The notes under the pieces: generated by a model
Databases searched by the model: none
The model's input: the letters and a program-made list of their open reading frames with translations, nothing else
What the model was told of the DNA's origin: nothing
In this document: positions 14,977 to 16,003 of the stretch, piece by piece
Position numbering within the stretch: the stretch's first letter is position 1
Layout of the letters: every line of letters begins with the position of its first letter
Translations under genes and position numbers: made by a program
From: Neglectibacter sp. X58
GTDB lineage: Bacteria; Bacillota; Clostridia; Oscillospirales; Acutalibacteraceae
Assembly: GCF_009936035.1 (NCBI RefSeq)
Contig: NZ_QWEO01000018.1
Coordinates: forward strand, 1 to 47,331
Direction: 5' to 3'
DNA length: 47,331 nt

Positions 14977-15777
14977 ATGTTTTTTAAGGACAAGCTTAAG
15001 CTTATGAAACTGCCTACAGCCAAAATCCAGCCAAACCCCTCCCAGCCCAGAAAGGTGTTCCAGGAAGAAGAACTGAAAAGCCTGGCCCAGAGCATTATAG
15101 AAAACGGCCTTTTGCAGCCGGTGACAGTGCGCCGGGAAAACGGCACGTATTATCTGGTGGCGGGGGAAAGGCGGCTGCGCGCCTGCAAGCTGGCTGGGAT
15201 AAAAGAAATCCCTGCTATCCTGGCGGACTGCGAGCCAGAGGACAGCGCGGTTTTGGCCCTGCTGGAAAATGTCCAGCGCCGGGACTTGCAAATGTTCGAG
15301 CAGGCCGCTGCCATTGCAAGCCTCTTGCGGGAGTGGAACATAACCCAGGAGGAGGCCGCAAGGCGCCTGGGTATGAGCCAGTCATATCTGGCAAATAAGG
15401 TGCGGCTTTTAAAGCTGAGCGCTGAGGAGCAGCATGACATACTTGCAAACAACCTGACAGAGCGCCACGCAAGGGCGCTGCTGCGTATAGACGATATAGA
15501 GATAAGGCGGAAAATCCTGCATACGGTTATTGCCAGGGGACTGAACGTTTCCCAAACAGAAGCCCTTGTGGCGGAATCCATGAAGCCAAAAGAGCAAAAG
15601 GGTAAAGCAAGGCGAACCTTTGTGGCAAAAGATATCCGGCTCTTTATCAACACCATCGACCACGCGGTGGACGCTATGAAAACCGCGGGCATCCAGGCGC
15701 ACACAGAAAAGAAGGAAACCGAGGAGTACATCGAGTGTACAGTGCGCATTCCTAAATTAACCAGAGTACAAGTTTAA
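14977..15777 (+). CDS. noc: Nucleoid occlusion protein Noc (ParB paralogue)
   Basis: 266-aa ParB/Noc CTPase. CTP-binding motif GERRLRA at 63-69 and ENVQRRDLQ; HTH region SQSYLANKVRLLKL and TERHARALL. The four residues that separate Noc from ParB specificity (QKKR against RTAG, in Caulobacter ParB numbering 173, 179, 184, 201) read Q135, K141, K146, R163 here, all Noc type. The N-terminal MFFKDKLKLMK could be the short amphipathic membrane-binding helix of Noc. Strong AAAGGGGGGCGG ribosome site. Noc blocks FtsZ ring assembly over the nucleoid in Bacillus; function here is inferred from residues and position. Confidence 0.9.
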   Translation: MFFKDKLKLMKLPTAKIQPNPSQPRKVFQEEELKSLAQSIIENGLLQPVTVRRENGTYYLVAGERRLRACKLAGIKEIPAILADCEPEDSAVLALLENVQRRDLQMFEQAAAIASLLREWNITQEEAARRLGMSQSYLANKVRLLKLSAEEQHDILANNLTERHARALLRIDDIEIRRKILHTVIARGLNVSQTEALVAESMKPKEQKGKARRTFVAKDIRLFINTIDHAVDAMKTAGIQAHTEKKETEEYIECTVRIPKLTRVQV

Positions 15778-15803
15778 CCCATTCCCTTATTCATTTCCCA
15801 CAG

Positions 15804-15846
15804 AGAAGGCCGGGGCAGCAATGCCGCGGCTTTCTTGCTTTTTTAT
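15804..15846 (+). terminator. noc terminator
   Basis: A 14-bp stem with one mismatch and a GCAA tetraloop (15804-15835: AGAAGGCCG ... CGGCTTTCT), followed by TGCTTTTTTAT. Confidence 0.85.
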
Positions 15847-15847
15847 C

Positions 15848-15946
15848 GTAAACGCACTTAAAAATTGGTACATCCCAATTTTTAAGCCAGGCGGCTCAGA
15901 TGCCTGGTTCAGAAGAGGTAGAATACCTCTTCTGAATTGCGTTAAC
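15848..15946. other. Four-way-junction palindromic element between noc and parA
   Basis: Three hairpins abut with no unpaired bases and are closed by an outer stem. Outer: AACGCA 15851-15856 with TGCGTT 15938-15943, plus two more pairs after a mismatch. Hairpin 1: 12 bp perfect, 15857-15868 with 15875-15886. Hairpin 2: CCAGGC 15887-15892 with GCCTGG 15902-15907. Hairpin 3: 12-13 bp perfect, 15908-15920 with 15924-15936. Only one base (15937) is unpaired at the junction. No ORF fits. It could be a folded RNA, a DNA cruciform or a miniature mobile palindrome. It lies after the noc terminator and 58 bp before the variant parS. Confidence 0.8.
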
Positions 15947-16003
15947 TATAAACTCCTTATGCGCCCCTCCGCAAACAACAGGAAATTTCTTTTGCCGCCT
16001 GCA

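Follow-up and report, generated by a model that had tools for sequence, protein, structure and literature searches.

The window, i.e., the whole stretch of 47,331 nt from Neglectibacter sp. X58 (contig NZ_QWEO01000018.1), carries a palindrome between noc and parA that lies 3′ of the noc terminator and 5′ of a parS-like 16-mer, as the first-pass annotation had placed it. We found that positions 15841–15950 fold, both as RNA and as DNA, into a four-way junction made of three hairpins and an outer stem. The minimum free energy was −49.3 kcal/mol for RNA (z −8.96) and −33.3 for DNA (z −10.23), and none of 200 shuffled sequences was as stable in either case, which bears out the earlier judgment that such a structure is very unlikely to form by chance. 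Specifically, the outer stem comprises 6 bp (15851–15856/15938–15943) and a single unpaired base sits at the junction (15937), exactly as had been described for a near-perfect four-way junction, and the hairpins, previously given as 12, 6–7, and 12–13 bp, measure 12, 7, and 13 bp in the fold. All three lie on the (+) strand: H1 (15857–15886) has a stem of 12 bp (15857–15868/15875–15886) and a loop at 15869–15874, H2 (15887–15907) a stem of 7 bp (15887–15893/15901–15907) and a loop at 15894–15900, and H3 (15908–15936) a stem of 13 bp (15908–15920/15924–15936) and a loop at 15921–15923.

The hairpins are bordered by terminal inverted repeats on the left (15846–15856, (+) strand; TCGTAAACGCA here and TAGTAAACGCA in the family consensus) and on the right (15938–15948, (+) strand; TGCGTTAACTA, as defined by the family alignment), and the inner part of the left repeat pairs with the right repeat in both the RNA and the DNA fold. 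Directly outside them, the dinucleotides TA at 15844–15845 and 15949–15950 are presumed to be a target-site duplication, based on the ends of the family alignment (TATAGT/ACTATA) and on the empty sites described below. The unit between the two TA dinucleotides, a predicted MITE of 103 bp, occupies 15846–15948 on the (+) strand, defined as the orientation in which the GTAAACGCACTT side comes first; it is delimited by BLAST against its own genome and by a covariance model match of 111.4 bits at 15841–15950. Since the inverted repeat in the family alignment reaches TATA…TATA (15844–15950), the palindrome stands as first described, but its length of about 99 nt does not, the unit being slightly longer. 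The covariance model found no second copy of the palindrome in the window. An Rfam scan of the window returned two tRNAs alone at the gathering score and no family at the palindrome, in line with the earlier view that no known riboswitch or tRNA fits. Core sites of integron attC have the form RYYYAAC/GTTRRRY; as judged by eye, the consensus tips of the family read TATAGTWAACGC instead.

The first-pass annotation had proposed that copy number would decide between its readings, with many BLASTn matches in the same genome indicating a mobile sequence, and this proved right: the own genome (G000) contains 22 near-full-length places with 71–100% identity on 14 contigs. Beyond TATAGT…ACTATA the flanks of aligned copies diverge sharply, and full-length copies share a common plan of three hairpins between terminal repeats of the form TATAGTWAACGC. 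An alignment of 58 rows, the window included (A1), was the basis of the covariance model; it omits 4 of 61 non-overlapping matches, which have a longer H2 (L073, L083, L084, and L085). A covariance model search, also suggested at the outset, yielded matches at E 0.001 in 12 of 29 genus genomes (3 to 117 each, with at most 132 candidates scored per genome) and no match at this threshold in the remaining 17. These matches are not equivalent to copies: the element and its reverse complement are almost the same, and most copies are hit on each strand (in one search, 22 places gave 43 matches). Across an order-level sample of 394 genomes, searched with stricter filters and 9 candidates scored per genome, four genus members matched the model strongly and there were two weak matches outside the genus (E 4e-4 and 6e-4). 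An exact pattern scan of a named-genome collection returned 32 stretches, all labelled Acutalibacter sp. or (uncultured) Oscillospiraceae bacterium; the same exact pattern had no match in viral contigs, and blastn found no match to the element in phages and plasmids. Among the genomes searched, strong matches are confined to part of one genus. Short derivatives of 22 to 83 bp are frequent and include a fused pair of terminal repeats (TATAGTAAACGCGTTTACTATT), single-hairpin forms of 54–57 bp, and a form of 83 bp; at one site, a short form in genome G010 stands opposite a longer, decayed form in G017.

Another repeat family, ~163 bp long, whose ends read AGGGCTTGTTTGAAAA, was also observed. An end of it occurs in 13 loci, and the repeat was placed at L070:439–601, L119:4860–5022, L206, L217, L222, and L363. 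The L070 repeat has inserted into one of the 103-bp elements.

Comparison of related species revealed eight distinct empty sites (borders extrapolated by up to 25 nt), six of which differ from the occupied site by exactly the element plus one TA, while the remaining two are 1 bp and 2 bp off. An additional gap row (L267/L260, gap 7), which pairs a decayed full copy with a short form, was omitted. Duplication of TA and a duplication-free insertion between T and A leave identical letters and are indistinguishable in these comparisons. In the G010/G017 alignments, a decayed copy in G017 (L262) also fits a TA target. The genomic context was assessed by a crude longest-ORF rule in the 69 of 121 copies flanked on each side by at least 1.4 kb: 51 of the 69 lie outside ORFs, as compared with 51 of 345 random positions. 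The list of 121 “full” rows used here, and also for the H1-loop counts and the loop tree below, follows a loose rule and includes 13 rows with more than 12 of 40 pairs mismatched, mostly chance stretches. A terminator-like role was considered and rejected, given that convergent-gene sites account for 10 of 51 non-ORF copies and 13 of 51 random non-ORF positions, i.e., show no enrichment. At one locus (L134/L176, in G000 and G001), the element apparently interrupts a terminator loop, the terminator being intact in the homologous loci of other species (L134:1990–2250 compared with L322, L330, and L333).

The same-genus relatives bear directly on the proposal, put forward in the first-pass annotation, that a DNA cruciform serves origin organization at noc–parA, and on a corresponding role in partition. 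The location, with the noc terminator on one side and a parS-like site on the other, fits such a role, but none of the 15 same-genus noc–parA loci carries the element, even though noc adjoins parA and a parS-like palindrome (≤2 mismatches) is kept in all 15; moreover, the own genome's remaining 21 near-full-length places are spread over 13 contigs, none of them that of the window. We therefore consider an origin cruciform the most improbable of the explanations weighed here.

A 103-bp interspersed repeat in many copies, without a transposase gene, with sharp ends and terminal inverted repeats, with clean empty sites, and with the TA target typical of MITEs derived from IS630/Tc1-mariner elements argues for a non-autonomous MITE that lies between TA dinucleotides and has spread in part of Acutalibacter, a reading to which we assign a probability of roughly 0.8. 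Its many copies, TA empty sites, and genus-confined strong matches favor the miniature palindromic transposable element among the candidates first listed, and the palindrome would be a mobile repeat, neither an origin element nor an RNA. The element would have spread by insertion into TA sites, mostly intergenic ones, and may have been moved in trans by a transposase of the IS630/Tc1-mariner type. This MITE family with a TA target is new, although ordinary in kind, and its hairpins show an unusual pattern of change; the portions of the repeat literature consulted describe none of this kind for Acutalibacter or Oscillospiraceae.

Several known repeats invite comparison. RUP of pneumococcus is an IS630-Spn1-associated MITE of 107 bp with about 110 copies, whose terminal repeats pair together in the predicted fold and which is described as rare outside close relatives (PMC2229807, PMC3049150); RUP and its IS630 have TA at their target sites (PMC2229807). 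By these descriptions, our element resembles RUP in size, copy abundance, TA target, paired terminal repeats, and narrow host range, but the ends of RUP resemble those of a resident IS630, whereas the element has no such partner in the genus genomes searched. The Correia/NEMIS repeats of Neisseria are likewise described as MITEs with terminal inverted repeats, a target-site duplication, and TA at the ends (PMC2229807). The element is similar to them, by description, as a MITE with terminal inverted repeats and TA ends in an unrelated host; promoter and RNase III roles are among those reported for Correia. A small dispersed palindrome found mostly outside ORFs could also suggest a repeat of the REP/IS200 type moved by a Y1 transposase (TnpA_REP). 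We regard this as very unlikely: a TA target and symmetric inverted repeats at the two ends are more in keeping with DDE elements, and the element has 103 bp, as compared with 20–40 bp given for REPs (PMC3733652).

The search for an autonomous partner centered on the DDE_3 domain (PF13358). The own genome lacks a match to it at E 0.001, and matches occurred in 6 of 28 genomes in one search and in 2 of 8 (a set that included the own genome) in another. The IS630 ends that are readable in G001, G005, G017, and G022 all differ from TATAGTWAACGC. The IS630 copies of G001 begin TATAGCAATCC, i.e., with the same tip TATAG as the element, but diverge from it in the remainder of the terminal repeat; those of G005 begin TATTAC and those of G022 have the ends TATTACC and TTATTATTCC, unlike the element. 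Correia ends also begin TATAG. Inspection by eye of terminus pairs 0.7–3 kb apart, among the listed termini of six genomes, revealed no partner. Two such pairs (L282 and L283) contain no transposase in the translations as read, and the L282 pair encloses a gene that looks sugar-isomerase-like. An IS630 remnant in G010 (L142) has two weak terminus matches (2 mismatches) around it and was rejected as a partner, its left match lying inside an IS630 end of the TATTAC type and its reading frame being broken; a comparable terminus pair arose in none of 200 plain-shuffle trials, which counts against dismissing L142. Since no IS630 with shared ends was found in the host or the relatives searched, we file the family as a MITE with an IS630-like target and not as IS630-derived. 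Among the genomes compared, G022 (single contig, 3.8 Mb) has 16 IS630-type DDE_3 matches, and four more of its IS630 copies are 99.3–100% identical to the one compared; judging by this identity, its IS630-type elements look recently active.

The stems of the element display strong covariation. Among the 58 aligned copies, both sides have changed in 6 of 13 modelled pairs of H1, 3 of 8 of H2, and 7 of 12 of H3, and the number of both-side cells reached 68 as opposed to 20.4 after shuffling; none of 500 shuffles reached 68, a contrast that is inflated by the relatedness of the copies. Together with the very stable fold, such covariation would be expected of a structured noncoding RNA, one of the candidates first listed, or of a 3′ UTR module selected for a cloverleaf fold. 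Selection on RNA tolerates G-U pairs far more than A-C pairs, and we therefore counted both on the modelled strand, excluding pairs whose commonest state is G-U. Over all 121 rows there were 207 G-U and 191 A-C (p 0.45); the values were 105 and 106 in 100 cleaned rows (at most 8 mismatched pairs) and 23 and 21 in the 49 best rows. In comparison, the acceptor and T stems of 17 distinct tRNAs gave 14 G-U and no A-C (Fisher p 1.5e-4 for 14:0 versus 207:191). The near-equality of G-U and A-C is what would be expected at the DNA level, where both strands of a palindrome are treated alike, and it does not look as if RNA function has kept the hairpin arms matched. The shortened derivatives of 22 to 83 bp and the 17 genus genomes that have no match also speak against a structured RNA, which we deem very improbable, though less so than an origin cruciform. 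A palindromic MITE can thus pass the usual covariation test for structured RNA, while a simple count of G-U versus A-C separates this element from tRNAs.

Next to the covariation stand the loops and a few sites at which the same copy can be compared between species. The H3 loop occurs in both orientations (30 versus 16 of 46 copies), as does the H1 loop (GGTAAATACC in 8 and GGTATTTACC in 7). On a tree of these 46 of the 121 copies, H3 loop orientation changes 12 times, as compared with 13.4 times with shuffled labels; no branch of the tree is well supported, and hence these changes are no proof of repeated flips. The pair L052/L069 shows a reversed H1 loop, with homology on the left flank only. 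Orthologous sites were compared in the species pairs P1, P2, P3, and P5, with P4 (L063/L070) left out, and both arms have changed at two of the four (P1 and P5), P2 and P3 having uncompensated changes only. At P5 (G014/G005), three pairs carry a change in each partner base, including two neighboring pairs of H2, and the flanks are identical at 96 of 104 and 138 of 143 positions. At P1 (L134/L176, G000/G001), the terminal repeats and H2 are identical, and H1 and H3 differ in both arms with pairing kept; counted pair by pair, two pairs have changed on both sides, both in H3, as H1 is not alignable in this way. The P1 flanks agree at 141 of 150 positions on one side and, on the other, at 96.6% over the first 59 bp and at 88 of 144 positions farther out.

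These patterns could have arisen in more than one way. If well-paired copies are preferentially mobilized, selection at transposition, and not arm copying, would keep the arms of the MITE matched; the many near-perfect copies (49 of 121 rows with 0–2 mismatches in 40 pairs) agree with this, and selection on a double-stranded palindrome or cruciform would likewise give equal G-U and A-C counts. Selection on transposition cannot, however, act on a copy that stays put, and the P1 copy, with the same ends and near flanks in both species, seems to have stayed in place and yet differs in both arms of H1 and H3, just as the three pairs of P5 have changed on both sides in place. We see this explanation as a real but distinctly weaker contender. 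Somewhat less probable still is that in one lineage the P1 element was replaced by another copy through gene conversion or re-insertion. Its H2 and terminal repeats are common family sequences, as replacement would predict, but a search of the 29 genus genomes (at most 3 mismatches) recovered the new H1 stem, together with its 5-nt loop, at no other place, and re-insertion is at odds with the non-consensus outer bases (AATAG…CTATT) common to both species' copies.

Selected compensation that proceeds step by step is expected to lag behind neutral change, which makes a mutational cause more likely. In such a process, the arms of a hairpin would copy each other in DNA, by template switching during replication or by repair primed from a hairpin or cruciform, with inverted loops and the joint replacement of stretches in the two arms as further expected outcomes. 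The patterns in the aligned copies lead us to favor DNA-level arm copying as the most likely mechanism; it does not by itself explain the source of the new H1 letters at P1. Template switching has been proposed as a source of multibase compensatory changes in RNA genes (Monttinen and Loytynoja 2022; PMC8794818). The element shares with those template-switch hairpins the compensatory replacement of several bases in the two arms of a stem, but the published stems belong to RNA genes, whereas those described here are part of a dispersed mobile repeat and lack an RNA signature. We tentatively propose, at somewhat less than even odds, a family of mobile palindromes in which DNA template switching or hairpin-primed repair rewrites both hairpin arms jointly and in situ, so that strong covariation, swapped loops, and replaced stems arise without RNA function. 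If true, it would be a natural multi-copy case showing that a functional RNA cannot be concluded from covariation alone, and the family would be a readily available record of DNA hairpin evolution.

Two further features were observed around noc. In one relative (L100:2280–2386), the noc terminator hairpin contains the parS-like palindrome GATGTTTCACATGAAACATC. In the window, a C-rich stretch of 37 nt at the end of noc and beyond (15766–15802) is identical in 15 of 16 same-genus noc loci (a set that contains the window's own) and differs at one position in the 16th, while noc and the remaining intergenic region have diverged around it. With 8 mismatches allowed, the stretch is absent from nine noc loci of other families. 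This conservation suggests that it is probably an ultraconserved 3′ UTR small RNA, and the stretch may deserve more attention. As judged by eye, it is followed in all 16 loci by a terminator-like hairpin of varying sequence.
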